From positions 145,384-209,383 of the forward strand of contig NW_008705572.1 of assembly GCF_000186865.1 (NCBI RefSeq): DNA of 64,000 nucleotides, read 5' to 3'. A program made the translations under genes and the position numbers. Shown here in pieces: positions 27,538 to 56,400 of this stretch; positions within the stretch are counted from its first letter, which is position 1; each line of letters opens with the position of its first letter. The notes beneath the pieces were generated by a model that was given only the letters and a program-made list of their open reading frames with translations, searched no databases and was not told where the DNA came from. The stretch is from Aureococcus anophagefferens. Its lineage: Eukaryota > Sar > Pelagophyceae > Pelagomonadales > Pelagomonadaceae.

Positions 27538-30500
27538 ATGTTCTCGGCGCAGGAGCTCAGCGAGCACCTCGCCAAGGCGCGCGAGGCGGAGCGCTGGGCG
27601 CGGGCGCGCGGCGCCGTGCAGGACAAGCACTGGTCCTGGGTCTTCGGCACGCTCTGGACGGGCCTGCGCCGGTCGCCGCGGCTGCACTTATGCGTCCCGG
27701 ACACGATCCTCTTCGAGGACGGCGCCCCGACGAAGTGGCTCGGCAGCGACGCCGACGGCTACCTCGCGCGCAAGGACCTGACGCCGCCGGGCGCGCGACT
27801 GTACCGGAGCGACCGCGGCGGCGAGGGCCAGCGCATCCGCGACGAGTTCTTCGCCTTCGAGCGCATCAAGCTCTTCCGGGCGGCCTTCGAGGATGCCCAG
27901 CGCCTCCAGGGCGCGCGCCTCGAGGAGCCGTCGGCGGCCTCGGAGCGCACGCCGCCGACGGCCGCGCGCGGCGGCCCCGCCGTCTGCGTCGCGGAGTACA
28001 TCGACGGCGTCCGCGAGGAGCTGAGCGGGCCCCAGCTCGAGTACCTGGGGAGCCACCAGGAGTGGCGCGTCCAGGTGCGCGCGCTCCAGGCCCTCGTGGG
28101 CGCCCAGCGCTACGCGCGCGGCGTCTACGACCGCGACGCGAAGGCGTCGCTCGCGCCGCGCGCCGAGGCCGTCGCGGCCGCGGCGGCGGCCATCGCCGCG
28201 GGCGAGCCCGAGCACGTGAGCCGCGACGACCTGAGCCACCTCGCGTCGGCGCTGGCCAAGTTCGCCGAGTCGACCTACGCGCCCGCGGCGACGCGCGCGG
28301 CTGTGCCGAATTCAACCACTGGTTTGGGTGGTCCTGACCAAACTTCAGAATTCTCGAGCTCGGTCAAATCGAAGTCGATTCGGCTGACTTTTGGACGGAT
28401 CGTTTTCTCTCATCGAGTTCTCGAACCACAGTGAAAATCCTCGTGTCAAAACATTCGAATACGCTCACATTGAAGTCGAGTTGAAGATTTGAATTCGGCA
28501 CAGGCGCGCGGCCGAGCTCGCGCCGGGAGACCCCGACGCCGCGACGATGGACGACCTCGGCCTCGAGGTGGAGAAGCTGGCCATCGAGGCGGCCATCGAC
28601 GCCAAGGGCACGCTCTGGCTCCTGCGGGCGACGGAGGTCAAGGTGACCTTCGTGAACCGCGCGCCCGCGCGGACGGACCACGAGCGGTCCGAGGGGGAGC
28701 GCCGCGCGCGCGCGGAGGCCGAGGCCGCCGGCGACGAGCTGCGGCGGCTGCTGAGCCTGGCGCTGAAGCGCGGCGTGTCCCTGGAGGCGTCCTTCAAGCA
28801 CTTCGACGCCAAGGGGCTGGGCCGCGTGGACGCGCGCGGCCTCGTCGAGGGCATGGCGCTCCTCGGCACGCAGCTCACGGAGCCCGCGGCGCTGCTGCTC
28901 ATGGAGGCCCTGGCCGGCAACGCCGTGACGGGCTTCTCCGAGGCGCACCTCGCCCGCTTCGCCGGCGCGCCGGAGCCCATGGCGTCCGTGTCGTCCTGGG
29001 GCTCGCGCGCGGACCGGGCGTCGCCGGCGTCGCCGCCGCGCGGGAGCACCGCCGCGGGCGGCGACGAGCCGACGTGGCGCGACCGCGCGCGCGAGATGCT
29101 GCGATCGACGTCGTCGCGGCGGTCCGAGCGGCCGCGGACGACGGGCGCGATGGCGCGCGACGCCGCGCGCGCGTCCGTCGAGGAGGTGTCCGACGGCGAG
29201 GAGAAGAAGCACCCGCTCCAGCTCTCGAAGAAGGAGCTCCGCGACCGGTGGGGCGGCGACCCCCTCGAGGCCGTGCCCGGCGCGCGGAACAAGAGCCGCA
29301 AGGCCCTCGCGGAGCTCCGCGCGGCCGCGAAGCGCCGGCGCAAGCGCGAGAAGGAGGACCGCGAGCGCGAGGAGCGCGAGGGGTCCGTCGCCGACGAGTC
29401 GACGCTCGGCGTGTCCTCGGCGAGTTCGCCGCCCAAGGGCGACCCCTTGAACGACGACGAGGCGTCCTTCGGCTCCGGCGACCTCTCCGACGAGATGAGC
29501 CAGGCGTCCGTCGCCGGGGACGAGCGGAGCGCGCTCATGGAGGGCGCGCGGCCGGACGTCGCCGCGGCCGTCGACGACCTCAAGGACGAGTTCTACCACG
29601 TGCAGACGGGCGTCGTCGCCACGTTCCGCGTGCTCCAGGGGCCGCTGGAGCCCGAGGCGGACGCGCGCGCGGCCGCGACGTACCGCGAGCAGACCCTGGC
29701 CGCGGAGGCGTCGGGCGCGGCCATCGGCCTGCCGACGGCGCCGCGCGGCGCGCCCGTGCGCTTCCTGCTCGTCGTCGCGCCGGACTTCTTCATGACGCTG
29801 GACACGCTCGAGCGCTGCGTGACGCCGCTGCTCTCGCGGCGGGGCGCGCGCGGCGACGCGGTCCTGGTCGGGCTCCCGGGACTGCCGAACACGCACTGGC
29901 CCGCGGGCATGCGCGCGAACACGGCGTCGGGCGCCGTCAACAACAGCATGCACGCCACGGTCATCGAGCAGCTGTTGATCCACCTCAAGAACTCGAACCG
30001 GCTCCCGAGCGACCCGAACACGAAGGTCGTGTTCCTCGGCTTCGGCAACGGCGCGTGCGCGCTCACAAAGTTCGCGACGCGCCACCTCACGCCCCGCGCG
30101 GAGGCGCTGCGCGAGTTCAAGGACGCGACGGTGGCGCTGATCCTCGTGAACGCGTTTTTCGCGGCGTCGGGCATGAAGAAGACGGCGAAGACGCTCCACA
30201 AGATCCTCTCCGGCGCGATCTTCGAGGAGCGGCTCGAGGCCATCGTCGCGCACCACCTCAGCGCGGACTACATGCGGGACAAGGGCCGCGACCCGGCGCT
30301 CCGCGACTTCTGGACGTCGCGCGAGGCCGTCGAGATCGGCGACAACGAGGCCGGCGACCAGATCCAGTCGCGGAACTTCGCGTCGTCGACGGGGCCCCAG
30401 GGCGTCATGGCCCAGCTCCGCGGCCTGCTCCACCACGACGACACGCGGCCCGTGCTGAACCGCATCGCCAAGCCCATGATCCTGCTCCAGGCGCGCAAGG

Positions 30501-33500
30501 GCCGCTTCGTGCCGCCGGACCTCGCGCCGGAGGCGCTGGACAAGGCCAAGGTGTCGCGCGCGCCGACGGCGTCGAAAGCCGCGAGCGCGGGCGGCACGGT
30601 CTGCAGCGTCGAGTACGTCGACTGCGGCCACGAGATGAACCAGGAGAGCATGAAGTCCATCGCGAAGGCGCTCAAGGACGTGCTCGAGGCCGCGGCGCCC
30701 GAGCTCCGGGACGACGACGACGAGAGCGTCGAGGCCGCGGCGGAGGCCGCGGTCGACGCGTCGAGCCCCGAGTACCGCCTCCCGCGCGGCGCCTTCGACG
30801 CGGAGCGGCGCGAGCGCGAGGAGCGCGAGGACCTCGAGGCGTCCATGCGCGCGGCCATGGACGACCTCGAGGCCGAGGAGGGCTCCGTCGGCTTCGACCC
30901 GCTGTCGCAGCTCGGCGCGGACATCGGCGACGGCGCCCAGGAGCGCAAGGAGGGCGACGAGAGCGAGGAGAGCGGCTCCGAGTCCGGCGCGTCGCACCCC
31001 GGCGAGGACGAGTCGCAGAAGAAGCACCGCAAGAAGAAGAAGGTCGGCGCGACGAAGAAGAAGCAGCTGCGCGAGGCCGCGCGCATGGCCGAGAAGCTCC
31101 GCGCGGAGCAGGCGGCCGTCGACCGCGCCAAGGCGGAGCAGGAGGAGCGCTTCGCGATGCGCTACGAGGACTTCCGGAGCCGCGAGGCCGCCAAGGAGGC
31201 GGAGCGGCTGCGCCTCTACCGCGAGGGCGTCATCAAGGCCGAGGAGCGGTCCGAGTACATGAGCCAGCAGCGCGACGAGGAGGACGCCGTCGACATCGCG
31301 AACCGCCTGGCCATCATGCGCGACCAGGCCAAGGCCGAGAAGCGGGAGCGCGACGCGGACGCGGAGAACAAGATGCTCGAGGAGGCGACGATCTTAGACG
31401 GCGAGAAGCAGGGCGGCTACCTGACGGGCGGCCTCGAGCGCTTCGTCAACGGGTCGCGCGCGAAGAAGGACGGCCGCTGCCCGCCCATGCGGTCCATCGC
31501 GGAGAGCGGCAAGCGCATGACCGACGACCTCTTCACGTCGCGGCGGCGCATGGTGCTCGCGCTCCAGCAGTGCAAGGAGCTCGAGGCCGTCGTGGCCCAG
31601 TTCCAGCAGGCCGTGGACGCGGCGGACCACGACGCGCGGCGGCTCCAGCGGACGCTGCGCCTCCTCGAGACGAACGCGGGGTTGAAGGGCGCGCTCGCGC
31701 CGAAGCAGCGCGAGGTCGAGGAGCTCCGCGCGTCCTACGCGGCGAAGATCGACGAGTACCAGCAGCTCACGGACATCCTGGCGTCGCGGTCGCGGAAGCT
31801 GCGGCTCGCGAACCGCATGGCCCAGGCGCTCAAGGTCACCGTCGCGCAGAAGGAGGACTCCGCGAAGATCCTCATCGACGCGCTCGATCGCCTCGCGCGC
31901 CAGCTGCGCATGAAGCGCGGCGCGCAGCGCCTCGACAAGACCAAGGCCGAGCGCGAGGCCAACGACCGCCGCAACATCATCAAGGCCCAGCGCGCGCGGC
32001 TCCGCAAGGTCGACACGGAGCTCGGCCGCGTCCGCTGCCACAAGGGCGCGTTCGTCAACTCGGACATGTGGAACCCGGGCGTGCTCCAGCGCATCACGAC
32101 CGACGACCTGCGCCTGGCGCTGACGACGGAGCAGCGCGCGCTCGAGCAGCAGATCCGCGACCTCGAGCGCAAGCTCAAGAAGTTCGAGCGGACCATGCGC
32201 GCGGCGAACCGCGAGCTCCGCGTCACGGACAACGAGGCCCAGACCGTCGAGGAGGTCGGCAAGGCCGTGAGCGACGCCTACAAGGAGGCCACGGGCCGGT
32301 CCATCGCCCAGGAGCTCGACGACATGGAGGCGGAGCAGACCCGGGCCCAGGAGCTCGCCGCGGAGGCGGAGGCGTCCGAGGCGCTCGCGAAGAAGGCGCG
32401 CGCGACCGTCTCGGGCGACTGCGTCGCCGCGCGCGTGCGCCACAAGGCCGCCGCGGACCGGTCGCCGGACGAGAAGAAGTGGGTCGCGCTGGACGTGCTC
32501 GTGAACCCCATCGCCTACAGCCACGTCACGGAGGCCGAGGCCGAGGAGATGAAGTACGACCCGGACTACGCGCCGAGCTTGCGCGTCGAGGACATCGAGC
32601 GCATCATCGTGCTCCCGCGCCAGCTCCAGCTCGCGCTACCCTTCCTCTTCAGCGAGGCGGAGATCGAGGGCCACCGCCTCCTCTGCGCCTTCACGCACGA
32701 GGAGGGCGAGGCCCACTTCCGCCAGCTCGACAAGAACGGCGAGGCCGCGCGCGGGCTGGCGGGCCTGCGGAAGCGCGAGGCGGAGGCGAAGGACCCGCTC
32801 GAGGAGGGCGCGCGCGGCAAGCGCGGCGCCATGCGCGCCGAGCACGCGTCCCTCGGCGCCCAGGCCCAGTCCATGGCGCTGCTCGACACCGTGCTCCGCG
32901 AGCGGCGCCTCGCGCGGATCCGCGCCAAGGGCGCGCACGACCTCGGCGAGCCGGAGGCGCGCTACATGGTCCTGGACCGCATCCTCCACCCGGAGTTCCA
33001 CTTCGCGCCGCCGGCGTCGGAGGACCACGCCCGCGACGACGCGGAGCACGTCGAGCGCATGTCCATCGCGCTCAACAACGCGTCGCGGACGGGCAAGAAC
33101 CAGGGCGACGAGTACGAGGCGCAGCGCGCGGCCTACGAGGCCGGCGCGACGGACCTCGAGCTGCACCTCGCGACGCCCTGGTTCCCCTACCGCGAGTCGG
33201 GCAAGGCCCACAGCCGCCACTCGCTGCTCCGGCTCGTCGACGCGGAGGCGGGGTCCTGCGCGTTCGGGCCCGACGAGTACCTGCGGACGCTCCTCGCCGA
33301 GTTCTACGTGGACCCGCGCTACACGGGCGTGGGCCGGCGCAAGGCCGGCGCCGTGCGCGCCTTCGGGAAGCGCCTCACCGTCATCCACAAGGAGCAGGAC
33401 AAGCGGCGCCGCGACCTCAACGCCATCTACGCGACGCACCACGCGACGACGGGCCTCAAGACCGCGAAGCCCGGCGGCCGCCGGACGACCAAGGGCCACG

Positions 33501-36500
33501 CGGACCCCAAGGCGCTGCTGCGCCGGTCGCGGCAGCGCGGCGGGGCGAGCGACGGCACGCGCGGCGGCTCCGACGCGCCCGAGGCGGACCTGCCGGACAG
33601 CGACGAGTCCTACGAGGAGCTCGCGGAGGACGAGTTCGACTCCGACGAGCTCGAGAGCGACGGCGAGCGCGCGTACTCGAGCGCGTCGTCGTCCGACGCC
33701 GACGAGGACGACGCGAACCGCGAGAAGCGCGTCTACGGCGGCTTCGACGCCGTGCACCCGGCGTCGCTCGGCCCGAACGCGCAGAACGCGGGCCTCGGCG
33801 GCAAGGTCGACGCCGCGGGCGGCGCGCACGCCGCGTCCTTCAGGAAGGGCCGCGGGTCCGAGAAGCCACCGGGCGGCGACGCCGCGCGGCGCGCGCTGCG
33901 GTTCCGCGCGTCCGTGGCGCGCCAGGGCATGCGCGGCCGCGTCGCGAACAAGGGCCCGCCGAAGAAGCTCGAGAAGTTCCACTCGTCGAGCTCCGAGGAG
34001 GAGGAGGAGAGCGAGGAGGAGGACCTCGACGCCGTGACGACGGTGAAGGACATCGAGGCCCTCAACGACCTGACGCCGCCGCCGCTCAAGGCGTCGGATG
34101 TGCTCTTCGAGTACGAGGGCAAGGTCGCGACGTTATTGGACGAGTCCGACGCGCTCGAGACGCGCGCGTCGCGGACGCACCGCTTCGAGATCCCCTTCGA
34201 CCCGCACCGCAAGCTGCTGTCGATCACGGTCACCGTCGTCTACCGCGGCGTCTTCACGGCGCGCGGCTACCGCCTCGGCCGCCTCGCCGCGGCGTTCTTC
34301 GCGATGCCGACGGCGACGAGCGGTTTAGGCCAGCCCCGGTCCGTGGGCCACGCGCCCTACGAGAGCCAGCAGCTCAACTCGGGCACGACGCTCGGGCGCA
34401 CGGTCCTCGTGCACAACCCCGACGCGAAGCCGCTGAAGCCCGGGCCCTACCAGGTCGTCCTCGGCGCCGCGTCCGCGACCAAGTACTCGATCACCGTCGA
34501 GGCGCACGCGGTGCGCACCGCGGGCGCGACGCTCGACGCGGAGAGCCAGCGCGCGAAGAAGATCCAGGACGAGCTGCGCGTCTGCCGCGCGGCGACGGAG
34601 GACCTGTGGACGTCCATGCGCCTCGGCGAGCGGAAGGTGCTCGTCGTCCAGGCGCTCATGGACGAGGCCGAGGTCGAGAGCTCGCGCTGCGAGCAGGAGA
34701 CGGAGCGCTGCAACACGGAGCTCGCCGTCGACGACGAGCGCATGGAGCTCACGGACGACCAGCGGCGGGCGCTCTACGCGAACGTGCGGACGCTCGAGGT
34801 CGAGTTCGCGCACTGGTGCCGCCTCTTCGCGTCGCGGTCCCAGGAGCGCGTCGACCTCCTCGCGGGCCTGCGGCGCCTGCGCAACGAGCGGCGGGACCGG
34901 CTCGCGGACACGGAGCGGCTGGGCCGGGAGATGGCCTGGCTCCAGCGCCACCTGCCCGCGGCCTACGGCCTCGTCTTCGGCATGGCGGAGGCCACCCAAT
35001 GCGCGCTGGACCTGAACACGACCTTCGAGAACATCAAGACGACGGAAGGCAAGGCCCAGTGGAAGAAGGTGGCGACCCTGAAAGGCCTCGTGACGTCGAT
35101 GATGACGCCCGCGGAGGAGGTGCGCCGGCGGCACAAGACCGAGGGCTGGAACGCGCTCGCGCTGCCCGAGCAGCAGTGGAGCACGCTCGACCGCATCCGC
35201 TTCCCGGACCGCTACGACTGGCTGCTGGACCAGGAGCGCCGGGAGGACGCGGAGCGCCAGGACCGGGGGCTGAAGCCCCTGAAGCGCAGGAAGCCCAAGG
35301 CCGTGCGCGCGATGGCGGGCTACGGCCGCGGCGAGCTCGAGCGCATCGACCGCGTGACCTTCGACCAGCTCACGCGCCAGGAGCGGTCCATCTGGAAGCT
35401 CATGAAGCGCTTCCACAACGACCCCAAGCTCCTCGTCGACTCCCAGAAGAAGAAGGCCGACGGCTTCGACCCGAACCACGCGGCGACGGTGCGGTTCAAG
35501 CACCCGCGGAGCTGGACGAAGGACGAGCGCGAGTGGGCGTCCATGGACAAGATCCTCAACCCCGAGCTCTGGCAGGGCCTCAAGCTGCGGACCCAGGAGA
35601 CGCTCGACGACCACGAGAAGGCCGAGGACATCGCCGCGTACATGCCGCCAGCGGACGAGGTCGCGGGCGAGGACGGGTCGCCCATGGGCGACGGCCCCAA
35701 GGCCGGCGCCTTCGCGGCGCCGCCGAAGCGCGCGCGCGCGGCCGGCTCCATGTTCGGCTCCATCGTCAACCAGGCGCTCCAGTCGTCCGTCGACGCGGCG
35801 GCCGAGCTCGCGACGGACGGCGCGGACTGGTCGTGCTCGCTGTCGCGCGAGGAGATCATGGAGGTCTGGGCGGCGAAGCACGCGCAGGCGTCCTGGGGCG
35901 TGGACCAGTGCAAGGCCCACGTGCTCCTCGAGCGCTTCAACGGCGACTTCGCCGACTTCTACGAGGTCCAGAAGTCGCAGCTCGCCGCGCGCGCCAAGGA
36001 GGCCGCGGGCGCGGGCAAGAACCGGCTCATCCGGGACCTCGACGAGACGCCCGTGGAGACGGATCTGGACGCGCGGTGCCGGAGCCTCCAGGCGGAGATG
36101 GACAAGGCCATCAACAACAGCAACGAGCACATGGAGTCGGCCGTGCTCCACGGCGGCGTCCGCCAGCGCTACCCGACCGCGGTGCTGCGCCTCGAGCTCG
36201 AGCGCGAGCTCGACTGCTTGTTGAGAGAGCAGGTCTACGAGCGCGAGCGCGCGACGCGGTTCCTCCTCGAGCAGGACGAGGACAGCGACATCGAGACGGA
36301 CAGCGACGAGGAAGAGGAGAAGCACCCCGGCATGAAGAAGCCCGACAACGTGTCCAAGGGCGTCTACCAGGCGCGGAAGGCGGCGCTCGTCGAGACGACG
36401 AAGGACGAGGCGACGAAGCAGCTCGAGCGGGAGCTCGCGGCGCTCGGCCCCCGCGCGTGCTTCGCGTGCCGCAAGAAGCTCTGCGAGTGGTGCTCGTCCA

Positions 36501-37927
36501 TCGAGTTCGACACGATCGCCGCGCGGCGCCAGGCCATCTCCGACGAGCTCGTCTACGTCCGCATGCACCCGGACATCAAGATCCTGGAGTCCTACGTGCC
36601 CCTGTCGTCGTCGCGCGGCGGCAATCCGCACTTTCGGCGCGAGGACCTGCTCCACGAGCTGACCTGGGAGGACACGCAGCTCGCGATGCGCATGCAGCTC
36701 GACGCGCTCGACCGCGAGCTCCACGACGCCTTCGCGACGACGAAGGAGTACATGGAGGTCAAGGCGCTCCACTCGTACCCGACGATGATGTGGACGAACA
36801 ACGCGCGGCGCGCGCTCGACCGCGAGCACAACCGCTACGTCGCCATGGTCGTCGCGTCGGACATCGTCGACGACGCGCTCGACTGGATGCTCGAGGGCTG
36901 GCACTTCGGCGAGCGCGAGAGCCACTTCTCCGTCGCGGGCTACGTGCCGTCGCTCAAGCCCGACGGCTTCGTCCGCGCGGGCACGGACCAGGTCCTCGCG
37001 CAGGCCGCGGCGGAGGACCGGAAGACGAAGCAGCTCGCCGACGAGGCCGCGGGCGGCCCGCCGCCGGAGAGCAGCGTCGTCGGGTCGCCGCGGTCCAAGG
37101 CCGAGGCCATCGAGCAGGCGGCCCAGTTCCGGCTCGGCACGGAGAAGGTCGTCAAGGCGGGCGGCGACCGCGACAAGCACCTCGACTTCACGGAGCGCAC
37201 GCTCAAGTTCGGCCTCTTCTCCATCACGCTCATGTTCTTCCGCGCCATGGCCCTCGTGCAGCGCGAGAAGGAGTCGTGGTCCGGCGTCCACGACGCCATC
37301 GGCGAGGACGACGCGAAGAAGGTGCCGCCGACGGACGAGCGGAAGAAGATGCGCCGCGAGCAGCAGCGGCAGGACGAGCGCCAGAAGAAGCTCGCGAACG
37401 CCCTGGGCCGGGCCAAGGTCGGCGAGGAGCGCACGCGGCGGCGCATCGAGAAGGAGAAGGCCGAGGCCGCGCGGAAGCTCCACGAGAAGGTCCGCCGCGA
37501 GAAGCGCGAGCTCCAGGCCTGCGGCCAGCTCCAGAGCTTCTACCGCGGCCACCTGGGCCGCAAGGCGGCGCGCCGCTGGGCCATCAAGCGCGCGGAGCTC
37601 GAGGCCATGAACGCGCTCATGACCGCGTCCGCGATCACCATCGAGCGCGTCTTCCGCGGCTACATGGGCCGCATCGCGGCGTCCGTCGCGCGCATGGAGA
37701 TGGCCGAGTTCATCTCCATGGTCCGCATGGAGGAGGCCGCGGCCGACGAGGACGAGTACTGGAAGAGCCACTCCTACGCGCGCATGAAGCGCAACATCCG
37801 CATGTTCGTCCACTCGACGCTCAGCAACCGCAAGTCCAAGCTCGGCGAGGAGGACCTCGCCCTCATCCAGAAGCTCACGTCGTCCATGGAGGACGCGGAC
37901 GTCGACGCGGACGCGTCGAATCGGTGA
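27538..37927 (+). CDS. Giant 3,392-residue IQ-motif protein with degenerate hydrolase-like domain
   Basis: Join 27538-28292 with 28504-37927; splicing out the introner keeps frame (APAAT-RAAELAPGD). Features in order: a globular N-terminus; a degenerate EF-hand (FKHFDAKGLGRVDARG, ~350); a charged region; an alpha/beta-hydrolase-like domain (~670-985) whose elbow is GFGNGA with no serine; a long coiled coil (~1050-1500); four copies of a W-x-x-[LM]-D-x-I-x-x-P motif (~1577, 1739, 2477, 2595); acidic runs; a beta-rich segment (~2110-2230); a CFACRKKLCEWC zinc-knuckle-like cluster (~2904); and two IQ motifs (LQSFYRGHLGRKAAR ~3255, IERVFRGYMGRIAA ~3297) that should bind calmodulin-like proteins. 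A scaffold role is the best guess. Family not recognised. Confidence 0.82.
28293..28503 (+). mobile_element. Introner element, family A copy 1 (211-bp GC-AG intron)
   Basis: The 8-bp target duplication GCGCGCGG is at 28293-28300 and 28504-28511. The element has perfect 15-bp inverted ends, CTGTGCCGAATTCAA and its complement before 28504. The donor is the GC that opens the upstream duplication; the acceptor CAG is the element's last three bases. Retention would stop translation at 28434. Confidence 0.93.
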
Positions 37928-37973
37928 TAACGTGCGTCCTTGTGCTAGGCGCCTCCGCTCCACCGCCTGTTTA

Positions 37974-38465: not shown

Positions 38466-38691
38466 GGCGGACGAGGTGACGGCCGCGCGCGGCGTCGGAG
38501 AGCCTGCTGTGGACGAGGCGACGGCGCTCGCGGCGTCGGAGAGCAGGCTCCTCTGCGAGCTCGACCTGTCGCAGCTGTGGTTGCACAGACGCTGCACTGC
38601 ATCAAGTACTGCATCATCAGCTTGTCCACAGCACCCGTCGCATTTTTTTTGCTCATGTACTTAGTAGTAGGCCTGGTAGTGACGAAGTTCA

Positions 38692-40466
38692 TTACGGCGC
38701 TGATTTTCGGTATAATCGCCGACTGTTTCGGTTTTTTTGTTTTTTTTGTGCGCTCGCGACGATGCGCTCGGCGAAGGGCAGCGCGAGGCGGGCGTCGACC
38801 TGGGCCCAGCGCAGGGGCGTGGGGTCCCGACCTTTCCCGCGCGCTTTGGGCTCGCCGCCCCGGAGCCACGCGCGCGCCGCCGGCGCGAGGCTGTGGGTCT
38901 CGAGCTTGTCGATGGTGTGGGCCACGGCGCCGCAGAGGGGCGTCGCGAGGTCGACCTCCACGACGGCCGCCGGGTCGCCCGCGGGCACGCCCGGAATGTC
39001 CATCACGTAGAGGCCCAGCGCGGCCATGTGCTTTGCGAACATTTCGTCCATGCGCAACCGCGATTTGGTCGTCCATGTGCCCCCGCGTTTCACTTTTTTC
39101 TCGATGCTCCACTCCCGCATCGCCGTCGACTGCGGGTGGGGCACGTGGACCGTGAACGCGTCCGGCACGACGCGGAACGAGTAGTTCGCGCCTGGGCAGG
39201 AAAAGAGTGATTCAACGTCGGTTCAACGCGAGTGTTCCGCGCGCGTTCGTTCCGGAAAAAGCGTCCGCGCGTCGAGACCGTTCCGAGGGATGATCGCTCG
39301 TCCACGAATCAGCCGAAACGAGTGGGAAACGGCCGAGATAGGAGCCTTGAAGTTGGGGAAAATCGCACCCTTTTCCCGCCCTGGTTCGCGCCGCGCAAAG
39401 ACGCGATCCACTCGATCTTGTTTTTGCCGTAGCCTATGTAGCGCTCGTCGAAGCGCGGCACGTGGCTCGCCTCGCCCGGGTGGCCGTCGAGGCAGCGCGG
39501 CACGGCCACGAACGGCTCGTACTTGTTGCTGAGGAAGCAGGGCAGCGCGGGCGCGGGCTCGGCGGGCCCGTCGCTCGCGGCGTCGCCCGACGCGAGCCAC
39601 GCGTCGAAGCGCGTCGAGCCGTGGTGGTGGAAGGGCTCGCAGTGGCCGTCGAGCTCCTCGACGTACTCGAGCGCGCGGCGCGCGTCGTCCTCGCCCGCCG
39701 CGAGCGCGCGGCGGCGGCCCCCGGCGACGGCGTCGCCCTCCCAGAGGTTGAGCGTCCGCGGCGTCCACCGCGGCGGCGGCGGCAGCCCGGCCACCGTGCC
39801 GTTGGCGAGGCAGCGCACGAGGCCCCGCTTCGTCAGCGGGATGCGCTTCGCGAGCTCCGCGTGGTCGGGCAGGACGAGCTGTCGTGGCCACGCGGGCTTT
39901 CCGAGATCCAACGCGAACGCGGGGACGACGAGCGCGGTCCGCGGCCCGAAGGACGACCGGGCGATGGTCTGCTCGAGGAGGAAGCGCGCGTCGGCCCCGG
40001 GCCAGAAGTCGGCGTCCAGCAGGAAGATCCAGGGCGTCGTCGCCTTGGCCCAGGCCAGGTTCCGCAGCCGGTTCACGGGGTACTTCTGGTCGGGCTCGCG
40101 CACGAGGACGGACACGTGGACCTCCGGGCAGGCGGCCATGATGCGCTTCGCGTCCTGCGTGACGCCGCCCGGGTCCTCAGGCGTCACCGTCATGCCCAGG
40201 CTCAGGGGCCCCTTCCAGCGCTCGCAGACGTGGCCCAAGTTCCAGAGGCGGTCCGTCGTCGACTGCGTCACGATGGTCACGTTGCCGTTGGCCGTCGTCG
40301 ACGGCGCGTCGGGCTCGCAGCCCGGCGGCACGCCGCCGGGCCATTCGCTCAGCGCCCGGAGGTTCTCTGGAGCTGCGGATGCGACCAGCGCGGGCCGGCC
40401 GCCCTCGTGAATGGCGAAGGTGACGATGCAGGAAAGTACGATCATCGCGCGGACGATGACGTGCAT
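38692..40466 (-). CDS. GT49 glycosyltransferase (LARGE/B4GAT1-like), two exons
   Basis: Join 40466-39392 with 39191-38692 (524 residues). The start MHVIVRAMIVLSCIVTFAI is a type II Golgi signal anchor. Key blocks are VNRLRNLAWAKATTPWIFLLDADF, whose D-A-D binds the metal-nucleotide sugar, and RFDERYIGYGKNKIEW. After the intron comes ANYSFRVVPDAFTVHVPHPQ, the expected C-terminal family block, confirming the splice. Animal homologues add glucuronic acid or xylose to matriglycan; the algal acceptor is unknown. The intron is a family B introner. The tail KKQKNRNSRRLYRK is basic, and T-runs follow the stop. Confidence 0.86.
39192..39391 (-). mobile_element. Introner element, family B copy 1 (200-bp GC-AG intron)
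   Basis: Plus-strand flanks GTTCGCGC at 39184-39191 and 39384-39391 are a perfect 8-bp duplication. The plus-strand ends are CTGGGCAGGAAAAGAGTG and CACCCTTTTCCCGCCCTG, which are imperfect inverted repeats. Read in the host gene (minus), the donor is GC and the acceptor CAG. The element lies inverted relative to the copy at 53342 when both are compared with their host genes. Confidence 0.92.
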
Positions 40467-40969
40467 GGTTGCGATTGCGGGTGCCTGCGGGGGCGAGGCC
40501 GTACGGCGCGCCGCGAGGCCAGACGACGCCCCGCGACGGCGGAGCCGGTTTGAGATGCCCGTCGCCCGGGCGCCGGGTCGCTCGTTTTGGCTCGACGCGT
40601 CTCTAAACGTAGGGGGCCCGGGAGGAACCGCGGGGGACGGGAGGCTCAGAGGGGTCTCACAGGCGCCGGAGGCGCCAGTGGACGGCGGCGTCCTGGCGCA
40701 TGCGCCAGTACCGTTTTGGCCGAAACCCGTCGCGACCGCTCGATTTTTCGGGCGACGTTCGAGAAGAGGGGGTCGGGGACACCATGACGGGACGCGGGGC
40801 GGCGCTTTAAGGATAGGTGCGGGTCTCGCGTGAGCGGCTTGAGACAGAGATTTCGATACACGCATCTCTGCGGGGCGACCGCCCATGAGCGGGCCTCGCC
40901 ACTTCTCGAGGCGATTTCCATCGGCTGACATTTGCCCGGCAGCCCAGCATCGCCCTCGAAGGTGACGCG
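40467..40969. other. Divergent spacer, no gene seen
   Basis: It separates the GT49 gene (minus) and the first sulfotransferase paralogue (plus). The minus frame stays open upstream of 40466 but shows no conserved residues and is probably non-coding. Only the last ~20 bases, next to the ATG, are shared with the corresponding upstream region of the second paralogue. Confidence 0.5.
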
Positions 40970-41833
40970 ATGGTGCTCCGCATGCTCGTCGTCGCGACGT
41001 GCGCGCACGCGTGGCTGCTGGAGAACAGCACGTTCTGGCGGAGCCCACAAAGCGAGGAGCCCATGTGGAAGCGCATGCTCCGGACGACGTCGCCGCGGCG
41101 CCGCGGCGTGATCCTCTGGGCCCACGGGCGGTCCGCCACGGACACGTACTGCGGCACGCTCAAGGACAGCGCCCACTTCCGGTACTGCAACGGCATCAAG
41201 GAGGGCTTCAACACGAACCACCGCGAGGGCCGGGTGCTGACGAAGGCGCACCTCAAGCGCTGCGCGGAGCGGAACGAGATGCTCTCGCACGTCAAGCCGA
41301 GCCACCTCTCGCCGGAGGATAAGCGGGACCACCTCAACACGCCGGAGAAGTTCATGCGCGCGGCGCGGGAGTTCGGCTACGAGGTCATCGTCGCCGAGTA
41401 CCGCGCGAACGCGCTCGCGCGCATGGTCTCGTCGTGGGAGATGAAGCCGCGGTCCGCGGCGGACACCAAGGCCCAGTTCTGCCTGCCCCGCGGCGACCTC
41501 GTCCGAGGGATGGACGAGGAGTACTTCCTCTGGCAGCGCGGCCTCCGCGCGGCGATCCACGAGCGGCTGAAGGTCATCGAGCTCAGCTTCGAGAACGTGA
41601 CGCGCGGCCTCTGCGCGGCCGTGAAGCGCACGACGCTGGCGCTGGAGAGCTCCGAGTGCGGCGGCTCCAAGTGCGCCTGCCGGGAGTTCGAATCGCCGCA
41701 CACGAAGACATCCAACCGCGCCGCGTCGCTCGCGGGGCGCACGTCCAAGGAGGCCGCGGCCTGCATCACGGCCGCGCTCGAGGACAAGCCCGACTACGCG
41801 TGGATGCTCGACCTGTCGCGAGCAGAGAAGTAA
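40970..41833 (+). CDS. Sulfotransferase-like protein, paralogue 1
   Basis: A 287-residue protein beginning MVLRMLVVATCAHAWLL, a signal peptide. GVILWAHGRSATDTYCGTL (~48-66) is a variant of the PAPS-binding loop. VIVAEYRANALARMVSSWE (~138-156) fits the 3'-phosphate-binding R-x-N-x-x-x-x-x-S block. Four clustered cysteines (CGGSKCAC) lie near residue 226. It likely sulfates a secreted or Golgi glycan, but the acceptor is unknown. The paralogue at 42943 has the same length and shares the first 83 residues exactly. Confidence 0.72.
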   Translation: MVLRMLVVATCAHAWLLENSTFWRSPQSEEPMWKRMLRTTSPRRRGVILWAHGRSATDTYCGTLKDSAHFRYCNGIKEGFNTNHREGRVLTKAHLKRCAERNEMLSHVKPSHLSPEDKRDHLNTPEKFMRAAREFGYEVIVAEYRANALARMVSSWEMKPRSAADTKAQFCLPRGDLVRGMDEEYFLWQRGLRAAIHERLKVIELSFENVTRGLCAAVKRTTLALESSECGGSKCACREFESPHTKTSNRAASLAGRTSKEAAACITAALEDKPDYAWMLDLSRAEK

Positions 41834-42942
41834 AATTGTGCGGTATTTGCGGCGATATCGAGAATGCTACGAAGCGATCGCTGCCGTCCGCGTCGGCCGC
41901 GAGCGCGCCGTTCATGCGGTCGAGGAAGGGCGCACGCGTCGCGTCCGCGATGGCGCGCCACGCGTCCCGCGTCTCCCGCGCGAAGCCGCCCGCGGCGCAG
42001 GTCGCGGCGTCCAGCACGCACGCCTCATGTGAGGCGGCCCATGAGGCCTCCCATGACCGGGCCTCGCCACTCTCTCTAGCGCATTACAGCTGTAGGCACG
42101 CACCCCCACTCCTCATTCTCCTCGCCACACGCGGTGCCAGGAGAGAGCCACAGCTCACCGGCGCCGAGGCAGTCGGCGAGGGGCTGACCGGGGCATTTGG
42201 GTAAAAAATCCGCTTCGTCCCCGAGAGGAAGAAGCTTAGGCCTACGCTTCGTAGCCCATTCCTCCTCCAGAAACGCGACGGTTTTTCCTTGGGTCTGACT
42301 TGCTTGGTTCTTTGATGCCTCCTGTCCTCCCGGGTTCTCCCGTCGTTCTCGGCCGCTGCCGTTTCGAGTGCCCGAGAGCCCGGCTTGTTGTCACGGGGCC
42401 GGCGTCAGGCCGGCGTCCCCTACGCTACCGTGACTTTTATTCGCGACGAACGATTCTTGAACCGTGCTGCCGTGGCGGTTCGTCCGCGGCGCCCTCGGCG
42501 GCGGTCATTTCAGCCCCTGTCCGTCGCCGGCCGGGTGTGTCGGGGGGCTCGGCTCCGCGCTTCATGTTCCTCCGTCGTCCTGCCCTGCGTCCTTCCGCAG
42601 GTCGGAGTCCGACCCGTTTCGTCACGGGGTCGGCCAGTGCTATGCTACCGTGACCTCCCCACTGTCCAGTCCGTTGTGAGGGGCTGACCGACAGACCTCA
42701 ACTGGTTCCGCCCTGGGCGGGCGACTCCGGTTACCTGAACACCTCGGCTCTCGGCCGCGTCATCTTCACGATATCCGACCTGATCCGCGTGCGCCGTCGG
42801 CCGCCCACGGGCCGCCGACCTAGTCCCACGTTAAAGCACCCATAATAATAATAATAATAGCCCAGGCGACGAAGCGCTTGTGAAATTATCCAGACCGGTT
42901 GTCTACGAGTGCCTAAAAGGCATCGTCGTCGAAGGTGACGCG
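41834..42942. other. Spacer between duplicated sulfotransferase genes
   Basis: The first ~50 bp (TTTGCGGCGATATCGAGAAT onward) recur after paralogue 2 at ~43820, so the duplication included 3' flank. The rest is less GC-biased in codon pattern than genes and has internal repeats: GAGGGGCTGACCG at ~42178 and ~42676, and TCACGGGG...CTACCGTGAC at ~42390-42434 and ~42620-42653. No convincing gene is present. Small open frames have no family features. See the retroelement-like call. Confidence 0.6.
42390..42860 (+). mobile_element. Possible non-LTR retroelement 3' remnant with (ATA)n tail
   Basis: The segment ends in ACGTTAAAGCACCCATAATAATAATAATAATAG, a trinucleotide tail typical of some LINE-type insertions, and lacks coding capacity. 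Repeated subsegments occur within it. No reverse transcriptase frame is present and the 5' boundary is arbitrary. A simple repeat-bearing spacer is the alternative. The assignment rests on the tail alone. Confidence 0.3.
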
Positions 42943-43806
42943 ATGGTGCTCCGCATGCTCGTCGTCGCGACGTGCGCGCACGCGTGGCTGCTGGAGAACA
43001 GCACGTTCTGGCGGAGCCCACAAAGCGAGGAGCCCATGTGGAAGCGCATGCTCCGGACGACGTCGCCGCGGCGCCGCGGCGTGATCCTCTGGGCCCACGG
43101 GCGGTCCGCCACGGACACGTACTGCGGCACGCTCAAGGACAGCGCCCACTTCCGGTACTGCAACGGAATCAAGGAGGGCTTCAACACGCAGCACCGCGAG
43201 GGCCGCGACCTCACGCGGAAGAACCTCGAGCGCTGCGCGAGGCGGAACGAGATGCTAACGCACGTCAAGCCGAGCCACCTCTCGGGGAAGAATAAGCCGG
43301 ACAACCTGAACACGCCGGAGAAGCTCATGCGCGCGGCGCGGGAGCTCGGCTACGAGGTCATCGTCGCCGAGTACCGCTCGAACGCGCTCGCGCGCATGGT
43401 CTCGTCGTGGGAGCTGAAGCCGCACTCCGCGGCGGACGCCACGGCCCATTTCTGCCGGCACCGCGGCGGCCTCGTCCGAACGTTTAACAAGGAATACTCC
43501 CTCTGGCAGCGCGGCCTCCGCGCGGCGATCCACGAGCGGCTGAAGGTCATCGAGCTCAGCTTCGAGAACGTGACGCGCGGCCTCTGCGCGGCCGTGAAGC
43601 GCACGACGCTGGCGCTGGAGAGCTCCGAGTGCGGCGGCTCCAAGTGCGCCTGCCACAAGTTCAAATCGCCGCACACGAAGACATCCAACCGCGCCGCGTC
43701 GCTCGCGGGGCGCACGTCCAAGGAGGCCGCGGCCTGCATCACGGCCGCGCTCAAGGACAAGCCCGACTACGCGTGGATGCTCGACCTGTCGCGAGGAGAG
43801 AAGTAA
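42943..43806 (+). CDS. Sulfotransferase-like protein, paralogue 2
   Basis: Same length (287 residues) and architecture as the gene at 40970: signal peptide, HGRSATDTYCGTL loop, VIVAEYRSNALARMVSSWE and CGGSKCAC. Residues 1-83 are identical between the two. Residues ~84-105 and ~155-180 differ strongly (for example MDEEYFLWQ versus FNKEYSLWQ), while the block after that is again nearly identical. The tandem copy probably acts on a different acceptor or is being homogenised by conversion. An upstream in-frame ATG at 42880 adds 21 residues that paralogue 1 lacks, so 42943 is preferred. Confidence 0.72.
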   Translation: MVLRMLVVATCAHAWLLENSTFWRSPQSEEPMWKRMLRTTSPRRRGVILWAHGRSATDTYCGTLKDSAHFRYCNGIKEGFNTQHREGRDLTRKNLERCARRNEMLTHVKPSHLSGKNKPDNLNTPEKLMRAARELGYEVIVAEYRSNALARMVSSWELKPHSAADATAHFCRHRGGLVRTFNKEYSLWQRGLRAAIHERLKVIELSFENVTRGLCAAVKRTTLALESSECGGSKCACHKFKSPHTKTSNRAASLAGRTSKEAAACITAALKDKPDYAWMLDLSRGEK

Positions 43807-45901: not shown

Positions 45902-46166
45902 CTCCCGAGGCAGACCATTAGATCAACCATGGTCATGCAAACGCGCCGAAGTTGCCGCTCGCGCTGCCGCTCACCACAAGCTTACGGATAGCGGCAGCTC
46001 TCCGACGGCTGCGCGCGCGACGAGTCGAACGCCTGCAGCGCGTGGGACACGACGAGCAGTAGCCGACGCCCGCGCTCCGAGTCCTCGCCACGCCGACCGC
46101 GCCGCCGCCGCCGACGCGCCGCCGGCCCGGATCGCCCGGACCTCCTGCGCGCCGACGCCCGCCGTC

Positions 46167-47746: not shown

Positions 47747-47908
47747 CGTATGAGTATGCCACGCAGAAGATGCAACTTCACATCCAATATCGGCCTTAAA
47801 CCCCGAAAGGGCAGCCGCTTCAACCCGGGCGCTGCTAGCCGATGAAGGCGAGATCGACCCTAACGACAGCTTCGCTCTATGCGGTGTGCGACCTGGGCCC
47901 GGCGGCGC

Positions 47909-49456: not shown

Positions 49457-50467
49457 GTTCACGCGCGCGGCGCGGCGTCGGAGCTCGAGAGCGTGAAGAT
49501 CGAGCACTGGAGCAAGAGCTTGGAAGGCGAGCTTGCCGAGCCACGTGGGTGTTGTCGTCAACGTCTACTTTTCTCCGACCAAGGACGCGCTGCGCCCGCG
49601 TATGCTTCGAACTCCAGCACGCCTAGCCCCACGGCCCGGGCGCTGAGGGAAGCCACGAGCTAGCCGACCGAAGGTGCCGCACCGGACTCGGAGCGCCGCG
49701 GAAAGGCCCAATTCCCAACGGCCTTGCCGCGCGGGGCCCGGCTGCCAGTGCAACCAACATTGCAGCGTGCCGTCCTCGAGGTCGAAGATCACGCCGAGGG
49801 GCCTCGTCATGATGATGGAAGCATCGAGCCAGACGCCGCCGTGCTTGGCCATGTACATGACGCTGACCCAGTCCGCCGTGATCGGCGGTCTAGGCGCTGC
49901 CAGTGTTCCCACTGGCAACTTGAATACGCACGCGCGCCGGGCAATGGGCGTCTTCCTGAGCTCCGGGACGGGGCCCTTCCCGGCCTTCGTGCGCGCGCTC
50001 AAGGCGGCGTTTCGCGCGCTCAATATCGTCACCGGGCGGCGAACGAGCTCGGCTTCGTCAACGCCCTCGGGAACGGCGATCGGCTAAGCGCCATCGCCTA
50101 CGCCTACGTCGACAGATACGGACGCCAGGGCCCGGCGCAGGCCTGGGACCCCCACCAGAGCTCGCGCCGCAGCCCGCGGCTCCTCTCGGGCGCCGGCTTC
50201 GGCGGCTCCGCGCCTGCGCTCCGTGATCGGCCTTCGGCGCGGCGCCGCGTGCGCTCGAACCAGGCGCACGCCTCCCTGCTGGCTACTCAGCGCCCGCCGC
50301 GCATGCGGACCGGTACCCTCGCCGCAGCAGGTCGATCGCGGCCGGTCAGGCAGGGATCGGAGCGCGTCGAGCGCGCGCGTGCAACCTTCCCAGCGAGTTC
50401 ACCGTCGACCTAAAATCGCTCGGCTGAAGAGATGGCACAAAGTCTCTGAGGCCGCAGCACAGCAACC
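49457..50467. other. Spacer holding only a glycosyltransferase relic
   Basis: Apart from the relic on the minus strand at 49565-50032, no gene is recognised between alanine aminotransferase and ASCC3. Plus-strand frames over 50030-50400 lack conserved features. Confidence 0.5.
49565..50032 (-). pseudogene. Fragment of a sugar-binding DXD glycosyltransferase (GT32/capsular type)
   Basis: The frame contains TADWVSVMYMAKHGGVWLDA followed by TRPLG and DGTLQCWLH. The R/A-D-W-x-R-x-x-x-L-x-K-Y-G-G-V-W-L-D pattern is the donor-binding core of OCH1-like and capsular-polysaccharide transferases. The usual upstream N-terminus and the downstream acceptor half are missing, and the frame continues as low-complexity sequence to its stop. 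I therefore read it as a truncated relic. A small intact gene or an unplaced multi-exon gene cannot be excluded. Confidence 0.5.
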
Positions 50468-53400
50468 ATGACCGCGCCGCCGCGCCTCCACGTGCTCTGG
50501 CACGTCGAGCTGCACGGCGAGGACGCCGCCATCAACGACCTCGAGAAGCTCGAGCACGAGACGAAGCAGGCGCGCGCGACGCAGCCGGTGCAGGACGCCA
50601 GGGACCTCGACCAAGTCACCGGCGCGCTCCTGTGGAAGGTGCACGGCCACCGCTTCGGCGGCGGCGGCAAGAAGAACAAGCGCGCCTTCGACGAGTTCTG
50701 CGCCCGCGTCGGCGACGGCGTCACCAAGGGCGACGGCGACGCGTCGGGCGACGCCTACGCCGCGCTCCGCCGCGACGCGTCCGCGCACAAGACGGCGGCG
50801 CGCCGCGACGTCGAGCAGGCCTTCGGCGCCGTCGCGCAGCGCGACTGGAAGGGCGTCGTCGACGCCTTCGAGGCGCTGCGCGCGCAGGAGGTCGCGGCCG
50901 CGCCCGCGAAGCCCCGGGGCCCGCGGTGGGCGCCGCCCGTCGCCTACGACGGGACCGAAGCGGCGGACGCGCCGCCGCCGCCGGCAGCGCCGCCGCCGCC
51001 GAAGGCCGACGACGTCGGCGCGGCCTGGCTCGTGGGCAAGTGCGACGCGCTCGGGTCGAGCCTCGGCGCGCTCGACGTCGCGCTCGGCGTGCTCGACGCG
51101 GCGAAGAAGTCCGACGCGGAGATGCAGGGCGCGCTCATGGAGCTCCTGGGCTTCGGCGACGCGGCGCTCACGCTCATGGGCGAGCTCTGCGAGAAGAAGG
51201 CCGCCGTCGCCGCCGTCGACGCGCGCGACGTCCGCGCGATCGTCTCGGCGATGGGCGGCGGCGGCGGCGGCGCGGCGCCGTCGCGGAGCTTCGCGGCGCC
51301 GCCGTCGGGCGGCGCCTACCGCCAGGGCGGGTCCGTGCGCATCGGCGGCGAGAAGAAGCAGTCCCAGCGGTCGAAGAAGCAGCAGCGGAAGGCGCGCGCG
51401 GCGCGGACGGGCCCGTCCGAGGCGGCCGACTATCTGGAGGCTTTGGGCTTCGACGAGCGGTACCTCGCCCAGGAGCGGAGCCTGGGCCTCCAGAAGAACG
51501 TCGTCGAGGAGCGCATGTCCCACGCCGAGGACCTGCTCGGCGGCGCGGAGCGCGAGTACCGCGAGACGCGGAGCGGTTTGCCCGCGGGCGCGGAAAAGTT
51601 CTACGGCGAGGGCTACGAGGAGGTCGAGATCCCGCCGCCCAAGGCGCTGCCGCCGCCGGGGCCCGGCGAGCTGCGCCAGCTGACGGACTGCCTGCCGCCC
51701 TGGGCCGTCGCGTGCTTCCCGAAGTCGACGACTGTGCGGAAACCAACCGCTGGTTTGGGTGGCCCTGACCAAACTTGAGAATTCTCTAGCTCGGTCACAT
51801 CGAAGTCGATTCGGCTGATTTTTGGACGAATCGATTGCTCTCGTCGAGTTCTCGGAGTACAGCCGAAGAGATTGCGTTGAAACTGTCGCATACGCTCACA
51901 TTGAAGTCGGGTTGAAGATTTGAATTCCACACAGGTCGACGAAGGCGCTGAACCGCGTGCAGTCGGCCGTCTTCGACGTCGCCTTCAACTCGCAGAAGAA
52001 CCTCCTCGTGTGCGCGCCGACGGGCGCGGGCAAGACGAACGTGGCCTTATTGTGCCTCCTGGAGCTCGCGGGCCGCTTCCACCTCGGCGACGACGCGTCC
52101 GACGAGTCGCCCGCGGAGCGGAGAAAGGCGTTCCTGGCCGATCTCGCGCAGCACAAGGCTGTCTACGTGGCCCCGCTGAAGGCGCTCGCCCAGGAGGTCG
52201 TCGACAAGTTCAAGGAGCGCCTGGCGCCCCTGGGCATGATCGTCAAGGAGCTCACGGGCGACGCGCAGCTCTCGAAAAAGGACGCGGACGCCGCGCACGT
52301 GCTCGTCGTCACGCCGGAGAAGTGGGACGTCGTGACGCGCAAGCAGGGCGGCGGCGGCGGCGGCGACTCCATGGGGTCCCTCGCGTCGCGGTGCCGCCTC
52401 CTGATCGTCGACGAGATCCACCTGTTGGCGGAGGAGCGCGGCGCGGTGTTGGAATGCGTCGTCGCGCGGACGACGCGCTTGGTCGAGAGCTCCCAGTCCC
52501 AGGCGCGGCTCGTCGGCCTCAGCGCCACGCTGCCCAACTACGAGGACGTGGGCAGCTTCCTGGGCTGCGCCGACGACAGCGTCTTCTTCTTCGGGCCCGA
52601 GTTCCGGCCCGTGCCGCTGAAGCAGACGTTCGTCGGCGTCACGGAAACGAAACGGTTCCAGAAGCTCGTCAAGCTCGACGATCTCGCCTTCGACGTCGCG
52701 TTGAGCGCCGTGGACCGGGGCCACCAGGCCATGATCTTCGTCCACAGCCGCCGGGAGACGTTCAAGACGGCCATGGCGCTCCGGGACCGCGCGAACCGCG
52801 ACGGCCGCGACGGCGCGTTCAAGCCCGCGGAGGACCTCGGCAACCTCCTCAAGCCCTTCGCCCCGGCCTTAGCCAAGTGCAAGCACAAGGAGCTCCGGGA
52901 AGCCGCCGAGGCGGGCTTCGGGCTCCACCACGCGGGCATGTGCCGCGCGGACCGGAGCCTCAGCGAGCGCATGTTCGCCGCGGGCGCCGTCCGCGTGCTC
53001 TGCTGCACGGCGACGCTCGCCTGGGGCGTCAACCTGCCGGCGCACGCGGTGATCTGCAAGGGCACGGACGTCTACGACCCCCAGCGCGGCGGCCACGTGG
53101 ACCTGTCCATGCTCGACGTGCTGCAGATCTTCGGCCGCGCGGGCCGCCCGCAGTTCGACGACTTCGGCGAGGCGACGCTGCTGACGACGCAGAAGGCGCT
53201 GCCGGACTACCTGCGCAAGCTCGCGCGCGCCGCGCCCATCGAGAGCTGCCTGCCCGCGCGCCTCGCCGACGCCATCAACGCCGAGGTCGCCGCGGGCACC
53301 GTCGCGTCGTTGAAAGACGCGGGCCGGTGGCTCGACCACACGTTTCTCGCAGGGCAGGACAAGGGTGATTCAACGTCGCTTCAACGTGAGTGTTCCGCGC

Positions 53401-56400
53401 GCGCCCGTTCCGGAAAAAGCATCCACGCTTCGAGACCGTTCCGAGAGATGATCGCTCGTCCAAAAATCAGCCGAAACGAGTGGAAATCGGCCGAGCTAGG
53501 AGCCTTTGAAGTTGGGAATTTCGCACTCTTGTCCTGCCCAGGTTCCTCGCCGTGCGCCTGCGCAAGAACCCGCTGGCCTACGGCTGCCCCTACGACCAGG
53601 CGCGCGAGGACCCGGGCATGGGCCGCTTCCGCGAGACGCTGTTGCGCGACGCCTGCAAGCGCCTCGACGAGAGCCGCATGTGCCGCTACGACCGCCGGTC
53701 CGGCGCGGTCGCGGGCACGGAGGTCGGCCGCGTCGGGTCCCACTTCTACCTGCGCCACGAGTCCGTGCGCGAGTTCAACGAGCGCCTGCGCCAGCACGCG
53801 ACGGACGCGGACATCTTGGTGGTCGTCTGCTCCGCGTACGAGTTCGAGCAGCTCAAGCCGCGGAGCGACGAGGTCGCGGAGCTCGACCGGCTGCGCGAGT
53901 CGGAGGTCTGCTGCCCCGTGAGGAGCGACGAACTGTTCGCGTTGGCCGACGAGCCCGCGGGCAAGGCGGCGACGCTGCTGCAGGCCCACGTGTCGCGCGC
54001 GCCGTTCTCGGCCTTTACTTTAGCGTCGGACGCGGCGTACGTCGCGAAGAACGCCGCGCGCGTCTGCCGCGCGCTCTTCGAGATGGCGCTGCGGGCCCAC
54101 TGGCCGTCGCTGGCGGAGCGCCTGCTCGCGCTCGCCAAGGCCGTCGAGCGGCGGCTCTGGTGGTTCCAGCACCCGGTACGGCAGCTCGCGGATCTCGAGC
54201 CGAACCTCAACGAGCGGCGCCGCAAGTTCCCCGAGGACGCGCTGCGCCAGCTCGAGGCGAAGCGCCTGACCGTGGACCGCATCCTCGGCGACCTCAACGG
54301 CGACCCGCGCGAGGTCGGGAGCCTGGTGCGGAACAATGCCGCGGGCGCGTCGCTCGTCGCGGCGGCGCGCAAGGTGCCGTCCGTGACGCTGGAGGCGGAC
54401 GTCAAGCCCATCACGCGCACGGTGCTCCGCGTGACGCTCACGGTGACGCCGACCTACCACTGGGAGCCGCGGACCCACGGTCTAGGGCCCGAGCCCTGGT
54501 GGGTCTGGGTCGAGGACGCGCGCGCCGAGCGCATCCACCACTTCGAGCTCGTGCTGCTCAAGCCGCCGGAGAAGCGCGCGCGGCGGGGCATGGAGCCCGT
54601 CGTCGTCGCCTTCACCATGGCCGTCAAGGACCCGCTGCCGCCCCAGTTCTTCGCGCGGGCCCAGAGCGACCGCTGGGTCGGCGCGTCGGCCATGCTCGAG
54701 ATGTCGACGAACGGGCTGCAGCTCCCCGCGGCCGCGCCGCCGAACACGGATTTGCTACCGTTGCGGCCCCTGCCGCTGGCCGCCCTCGGCGACGAGCGCT
54801 ACGCGTCCTTCTATTCCTTCACGCACTTCAACCCCGTGCAGACGCAGCTCTTCCACTCCTTGTATCGCGCCGACGGCAACGTGCTCGTCGGCGCGCCGAC
54901 GGGCTCGGGCAAGACCTGCCTCGCGGAGCTCGCCATCTTCAAGCTGCTCAACGACCGCGGCGACCAAAAACTCAAGGCCGTCTACGTGGCGCCCCTGAAA
55001 GCGCTCGCGCGGGAGCGGCTCAAGGACTGGCGGAAAAAGTTCGGCGAAAAGCTCGGGCTCAGCGTCTTGGAGCTGACGGGCGACGCGACGCCCGACGCGC
55101 GCGCCCTGCGCGACGCCGACGTGCTCATCACGACGCCAGAAAAGTGGGACGGCGTCACGCGCCAGTGGCGGCGCCGCGACTACGCGCGGCACGCGGCGCT
55201 GCTCTGTGTGGAAACCAACCACTGGTTTGGGTGGTCCTGACCAACTTGAGAATTCTCTAGCTCGGTCAAATCGAAGTCGATTCGGCTGACTTTTGGACGG
55301 ATCGATCGCTCTCGTCGAGTTCTCGAAGCCCAGTCGAATAGCTAGCGTCAAAACATTCGAATACGCTCACATTGAAGTCGGGTTGAAGATTTGGTTTCCA
55401 CACAGGCGCTGCTCGTCATCGACGAGATCCACCTGCTCGGCGAGGACCGCGGGCCCGTCATCGAGGCCATCGTGAGCCGCGCGCGCTTCATCTCGGAACA
55501 GGCCGACAGCAACGCGGACAGCCCGCCGAAGGTGCGCATCGTCGGCCTGTCGACGGCGCTCGCGAACGCGCACGATCTCGCCGCGTGGCTCGGGTGCGAC
55601 CCGAAGACGGGCCTCTTCAACTTCCGCCCCGCCGTGCGGCCCGTGGCCATGGAGGCCCACGTCGCCGGCTTCGCGGGGAAGCACTACTGCCCGCGCATGG
55701 CGACGATGAACAAGCCCTGCTACGCGGCGCTCCGCGAGCACGCGGCGGGCCGGCCCGCGCTCGTCTTCGTCGCGTCGCGGCGGCAGACGCGGCTCACGGC
55801 GCTGGACTTGATCGCGCTCGCGGCGGCGGACGACGACTTCGGGGGGAGCGGGTCCGGCCTCTGGGTCGGCGACGACGTCCTCGGCGGCGAGCTCGACGGC
55901 TACGCGCGGGAGTGCGCGGATCCCGCGCTGAAGCACGCGCTCCCCTTCGGCGTCGGCGTGCACCACGCGGGGCTCCAGGAGCGGGACCGCGACGTCGTCG
56001 AGAAGTTATTCGAGCGGGGCGCCATCCGCGTGCTCGTCTGCACGGCGACGCTGGCCTGGGGCGTCAACTTCCCCGCGCGGCTCGTCGTGATCAAGGGCAC
56101 GGAGTTCTTCGACGGCAAGCTCGGCAAGTACGTCGACTTTCCCATCACGGACGTGCTCCAGATGATGGGGCGCGCGGGCCGGCCCCAGTTCGACGACGTC
56201 GGCGTCGCGTGCATCTTCGTGCACGCGCCGAAGAAGGAGTTCTACAAGAAGTTCCTCTACGAGCCCTTCCCGGTGGAGTCGAAGCTCAAGGACGCGCTCC
56301 ACAACCACGTCATGGCGGAGGTCTGCCTCACGCGGGCGATCACCTCGAAGCTCAGCTGCGTCGCCTGGCTCAAGTGGACCTACCTCTTCCGGCGCCTGAC

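Follow-up and report, generated by a model that had tools for sequence, protein, structure and literature searches.

Introners are among the few mechanisms that have been seen to make introns in great numbers, and those of Aureococcus anophagefferens and Micromonas pusilla were reportedly described by Huff, Zilberman and Roy in 2016. The present analysis concerns a stretch of 64,000 nt of the A. anophagefferens genome (assembly GCF_000186865.1, contig NW_008705572.1, positions 145,384 to 209,383), called the window in the following, and three repeated elements, designated family A, that interrupt two of its genes. According to excerpts of the literature, the characteristic introner length in this species is ~210 bp (PMC9481584), Huff et al. 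observed that splice sites are co-opted and that DNA transposition takes place in either orientation (PMC10228655), and the elements have constant-length direct repeats, terminal inverted repeats (TIRs), and canonical splicing motifs (PMC7789003); insertion between nucleosomes has also been reported. A further excerpt gives a fraction of 39.6% GC-AG introns in A. anophagefferens, the origin of which was called an enigma in 2011 (PMC3033335).

The elements described here share with the introners of Huff et al. the length of ~210 bp, the combination of TIRs and direct repeats, the co-opted splice sites, and the insertion in both directions, and the excerpts point to no difference in kind, although GC donors found here contrast with the canonical motifs of PMC7789003. 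The families reported by Gozashti et al. 2022 (in excerpt, PMC9860276) likewise have a target-site duplication (TSD) and TIRs, with the 3′ splice site in the element and the 5′ splice site in the TSD, as is the case here. The kind of element, its host, and two-way insertion are thus already known from the introners of A. anophagefferens described by Huff et al. 2016. Added details are that GC is used in half of the single donors and that a second family, B, comprises two splice-polarity classes.

We estimate a probability of about 95% that the three family-A elements, referred to as A1 to A3, are introners, i.e. short non-autonomous TIR DNA transposons that become spliceosomal introns upon insertion. 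This assignment is based on the sequence, which has TSDs combined with TIRs, a co-opted splice site, and exact restoration of the reading frame. The features are:

28293..28503, plus strand: introner A1 as intron, 211 nt, TSD GCGCGCGG (donor GC) and 203-bp element, acceptor CACAG
28301..28503, plus strand: element A1, 203 bp, with perfect 15-bp TIRs CTGTGCCGAATTCAA
28504..28511, plus strand: second TSD copy GCGCGCGG of A1, which stays in the exon
51724..51934, plus strand: introner A2 as intron in an ASCC3-like helicase gene, 211 nt, TSD GTCGACGA (donor GT) and 203-bp element
51732-51934, plus strand: element A2, 203 bp, with perfect 8-bp TSD
55196..55405, plus strand: introner A3 as intron in the DEAD domain of the second helicase cassette, 210 nt, TSD GCGCTGCT (donor GC) and 202-bp element
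55204-55405, plus strand: element A3, 202 bp, with perfect 8-bp TSD

The three elements lie where the first-pass annotation of the window had placed them (TSD starts at 28293, 51724, and 55196), and the 8-bp duplications GCGCGCGG, GTCGACGA, and GCGCTGCT proved to be exact on recheck. The inverted termini of ~15 bp, said to be perfect in the first and third copies, match at 15/15, 12/15, and 15/15 positions in A1, A2, and A3, respectively. The copies are less alike than the term “near-identical” used in that annotation implies, with pairwise identities of 84, 88, and 90%. When the window was scanned for exact 8-bp duplications flanking inverted ends, 26 matches were obtained, of which only A1-A3 have a length of ~200 bp and only A1 and A3 have 15/15 ends; the thresholds were too strict for both window copies of family B, which were missed.

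Insertion duplicates 8 bp of the target, and the upstream TSD copy, which starts with GT or GC (GY) on the coding strand, can then act as the 5′ splice site, while the element end CACAG provides the 3′ splice site. Loss of one TSD copy together with the element returns the host frame. The spliceosome is expected to excise the elements from the RNA at these sites, and a transposase acting in trans would have moved them. Because the ends of family A are inverted (CTGTG...CACAG), both strands end with CAG, yielding putative introns in both orientations. For family B, the same scheme applies, but its asymmetric ends permit splicing from one strand only.

Further copies, on the existence of which the first-pass annotation had made its reading depend, are abundant in the genome (49.05 Mb in 86 contigs). 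The 28-bp core of family A, with at most 3 mismatches, has 706 + 703 = 1,409 matches, compared to 0 + 0 for the reversed-pattern control, so that the repeats are not due to chance. The 5′ end of family B has 887 + 890 = 1,777 matches, again with 0 for the reversed control. Many similar introns thus reside in unrelated genes and at positions that are likewise unrelated. Every copy within the retrieved loci was sampled, resulting in 92 sightings of family A and 98 of family B. A TSD with at most 1 mismatch together with inverted ends was found for 82/92 and 91/98, respectively, and the TSD is exact in 70 A copies and 82 B copies.

A correctly placed GY donor is present in all 70 A copies and in 81 of the 82 B copies with an exact TSD. 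The A copies comprise 24 with a sense donor, 30 with an antisense donor, 16 with both, and none with neither; the corresponding values for B are 30 with a sense donor, 24 with an antisense donor, 27 with both, and 1 with neither. From host 8-mers, 16% sense, 16% antisense, 4% both, and 64% neither would be expected, i.e. 36% would have a donor on one side or both. The value of 70/70 for family A compared to 36% of host 8-mers bears out the proposal of the first-pass annotation that DNA transposons act as introns, with the donor in the TSD and the acceptor in the element.

A codon model was trained on two genes of the window, gave 128/128 and 80/80 in cross-checks, and was used to call the coding strand of the 99 copies that have 200 nt or more of flanking sequence on both sides (43 A, 56 B; 12/99 with one TSD mismatch). 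The called strand is identical to the strand predicted from the donor in 70/70 single-donor flanked copies, including 36/36 of family A. Of the B copies with donors on both strands, 21/22 were strand-called, all in agreement with the end triplets, and 1 remained uncalled. The flanked A copies are divided into 17 sense and 26 antisense insertions, which are intermixed on the tree (22 changes vs. 21.3 in shuffles). Decay is confined to the unused end, the acceptor in use being intact: sense-type A copies have the 3′ CAG in 24/24 and the 5′ CTG in 18/24 cases, and antisense-type copies have the 5′ CTG in 30/30 and the 3′ CAG in 22/30 cases. Among 80 exact-TSD copies that are flanked and for which the strand is known, 79 have no stop codon within 150 nt on either side in the predicted frame after splicing, and the intron phases 0/1/2 are distributed 34/21/25 (n = 80), approximately as GY falls in codons.

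These distributions bear on two other explanations. The GY at the TSD start might reflect a target preference of the transposase and not be a trace of selection for splicing, which would account for its presence in nearly all sampled copies; P elements are said to favour GC-rich targets starting with GT. This is improbable, since the GY of single-donor B copies is always on the strand on which the element ends with CAG (34/34 copies of one class and 30/30 of the other), which a splicing-blind preference would not give, and since the base at -1 resembles the coding background. Alternatively, ordinary repeated introns that multiplied through gene duplication or reverse splicing, without any DNA transposition, would also be intron-like and similar in length, as the copies are. 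However, 8-bp TSDs, inverted ends, both orientations, and differing flanks are unexpected under either process, and the probability of this explanation is practically negligible.

The effect of excision on the reading frames supports the introner interpretation. The two host genes of family A are:

50450..57598, plus strand: ASCC3/Brr2-type double-cassette helicase gene, 2,175-aa stop-to-stop frame with three introners removed
27472..37927, plus strand: host gene of A1, 3,414-aa stop-to-stop frame after splicing

Before excision, the helicase frames are broken, with a longest frame of 758 aa, and removal of one TSD copy and the element at three sites (A2, A3, and one family-B copy, see below) results in the 2,175-aa frame. 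Its exons encode DEAD, Helicase_C, Sec63, and SNRNP200_wHTH domains (Pfam), and the second DEAD domain is interrupted by A3, in line with the earlier claim of an insertion across helicase motifs. Splicing also opens a shadow frame of 2,204 aa in the helicase gene and one of 3,480 aa in the A1 host gene; as this happens in GC-rich DNA (G+C content of the window 71%), frame length alone is a weak proof of a coding frame, and the coding frames were assigned by homology and domains, not by length. For the A1 host gene, a Pfam scan of its two open reading frames (ORFs) had no match. Its long ORF as a query retrieved one relative, P0121, which aligns without a gap across the A1 junction, while a cut piece as a query retrieved none under a length rule that excludes full-length relatives.

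Continuity at the introner sites was judged on orthologous proteins. The closest relative of the helicase is JL720_5202 of A. anophagefferens (P0001), with 93% identity over residues 380-980 and 96% over the full alignment, followed by P0002 (75%), a protein of Pelagophyceae sp. CCMP2097 (72%), and one of Chrysophaeum taylorii (68%), which makes A. anophagefferens itself the most likely source of the window. P0002-P0004 are continuous through all three helicase sites, except that P0002 has a gap of one residue next to site 1. Together with the restored frame and the domains, these continuous orthologues uphold the claim that excision restores the host frame. At site 1 (A2), JL720_5202 has the same junction. 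At site 2 (53342..53541), it lacks five residues (WLDHT) that the other three proteins retain in similar form, and at site 3 (A3), it has four extra residues (12 nt) that are absent from P0002-P0004.

The latter difference is relevant for another explanation, namely that the elements carry both splice sites, with a donor GT within the inverted repeat (CTGT|GTGG), so that the mRNA would gain 12 nt (8 from the TSD and 4 from the element). The four extra residues of JL720_5202 at the third junction fit this scheme, a GT is present at that place in 38/54 single-donor A copies, and +12 bp is given in the excerpt of PMC9860276 for family 4 of an Aureococcus sp. MAG, which is said to carry both splice sites. 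Yet the scheme leaves the GY in the TSD of 70/70 exact-TSD A copies unexplained, the GT is missing in 16/54 single-donor A copies, including those of the A1 type, and P0002-P0004 have no extra residues at the A3 junction. We regard it as very unlikely, and a donor in the TSD fits the elements described here better. The deviations of JL720_5202 are likely to be gene-prediction errors: a gene finder restricted to GT would yield the difference at site 3, and use of an upstream GT would yield that at site 2.

Several observations weigh against the introner interpretation with a TSD donor. At two of the three helicase junctions, the JL720_5202 model uses a different donor, a single B copy is devoid of any donor, and half of the single donors are GC, whereas PMC7789003, in excerpt, speaks of canonical splicing motifs. 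Ten A and 7 B sightings without a clear TSD with inverted ends were left uncounted, one of the former being the window copy A2, which was cut by the edge of its locus. The sample is biased toward window-like copies and toward contigs C1-C5. Lastly, Pfam models revealed no intact mobilising transposase in the genome.

GC donors were found in 54/108 single-donor exact copies. Co-option of GC from duplicated GC-rich exons would explain the 39.6% GC-AG introns, a link that we do not claim as new. With such an even use of GT and GC, gene finders may misplace the junctions, which has apparently happened in one published model.

The first-pass annotation had counted three introners in two genes. This is correct for family A, but two family-B elements had been overlooked, one of them in the same helicase gene:

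53342..53541, plus strand: family-B introner in the helicase gene, 200 nt, TSD GTTTCTCG/GTTCCTCG (one mismatch, donor GT) and 192-bp element
53350-53541, plus strand: family-B element in the helicase gene, 192 bp, ends CAG..CAG
39192..39391, minus strand: family-B introner of the other polarity class, element 39192-39383 (192 bp) and donor-side TSD 39384-39391

The donor-side TSD of the latter introner reads GCGCGAAC on the minus strand, with a GC donor. Its host gene, on the minus strand, has a Glyco_transf_49 match, and excision lengthens the frame of this gene from 616 to 755 aa. The window thus offers a clean and checkable example with five introner copies in three genes, from two families and on both strands.

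The median divergence from the consensus is 9.4% for family A (n = 70) and 4.2% for family B (n = 82), indicating that B has spread more recently than A. The recent spread that had been proposed from the similarity of the copies agrees with the value for B, and family A fits it less well. At L006 and at L013/L014, at least two family-A insertions with opposite orientations lie within ~1.5 kb.

The ends of family-B copies, apart from some C/G variants, are either CAG..CAG, for splicing from one strand, or CTG..CTG, for splicing from the other. The set was enlarged by 20 copies, giving 108 with a TSD (95 exact) and 10 sightings without one; none of the 95 exact-TSD copies has perfect inverted-repeat ends. 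The polarity labels cluster on the B tree, with 15 changes compared to ~35, and 0/500 shuffles are as low. Both classes reside on nearly the same core, with only 2 core positions distinguishing the nearest pairs. A single origin of the classes is weakly rejected (p-AU 0.044), the bootstrap is not settled, and at least three polarity changes are forced by well-supported branches. It is conceivable, albeit doubtful, that family-B introners are polarity-locked and flip their polarity as a unit. In that case, the core would invert between its own inverted repeats and the outer splice-critical bases would stay, so that a transposon would re-set the direction in which it can serve as an intron.

By in silico folding, the acceptor AG of family B has an unpaired value of 0.63, which drops to 0.03 when the end mismatch is removed (68/69 copies), so that this mismatch is predicted to release the acceptor from the hairpin. 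The family-A acceptor is naturally paired (unpaired 0.08, n = 40). An exposed acceptor as a general requirement was therefore rejected, since family A keeps a hidden acceptor and hiding is thus not fatal.

A TSD of 8 bp is a property of both the P-element and the hAT superfamilies, and the family-B end CAGGG recalls hAT ends. Genome searches with Pfam models for MULE and IS1595/Merlin-type transposases had no match; the hAT model PF05699 (0 matches), the KDZ model (no match), and the P-type C-terminal model PF21789 (no match) were all silent with their controls as well. The rve model had four matches. One P-type domain, TNP-like_RNaseH_N, was found at G000:C25:178372-178818 (E 1.4e-9) with three in-frame TAG stop codons, and a P-element-like transposase relic as the driver of the introners is only a weak lead.

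A CpG target motif beyond GY was considered because C is present at -1 in 57% (n = 135), but the background in two window genes is similar (47% of GC and 57% of GT have a preceding C), and no such motif is claimed. The treatment of A and B as one family was also rejected, with a whole-length identity of 51-53% in matching orientation, compared to 38-50% when one pair was shuffled 20 times; their relation is weak and carried by a local block with 72% identity over 61 nt. A virus as a carrier was likewise dismissed: families A and B have a 19-nt block in common that matches one IMG/VR contig in an AT-rich stretch (L089:3965-3983), no introner sequence is present in the 801 bases around it, and the match is probably due to chance.

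The window also contains a 300-bp direct repeat pair at 40947-41246 and 42920-43219, the copies of which are 96% identical and 1,973 bp apart.

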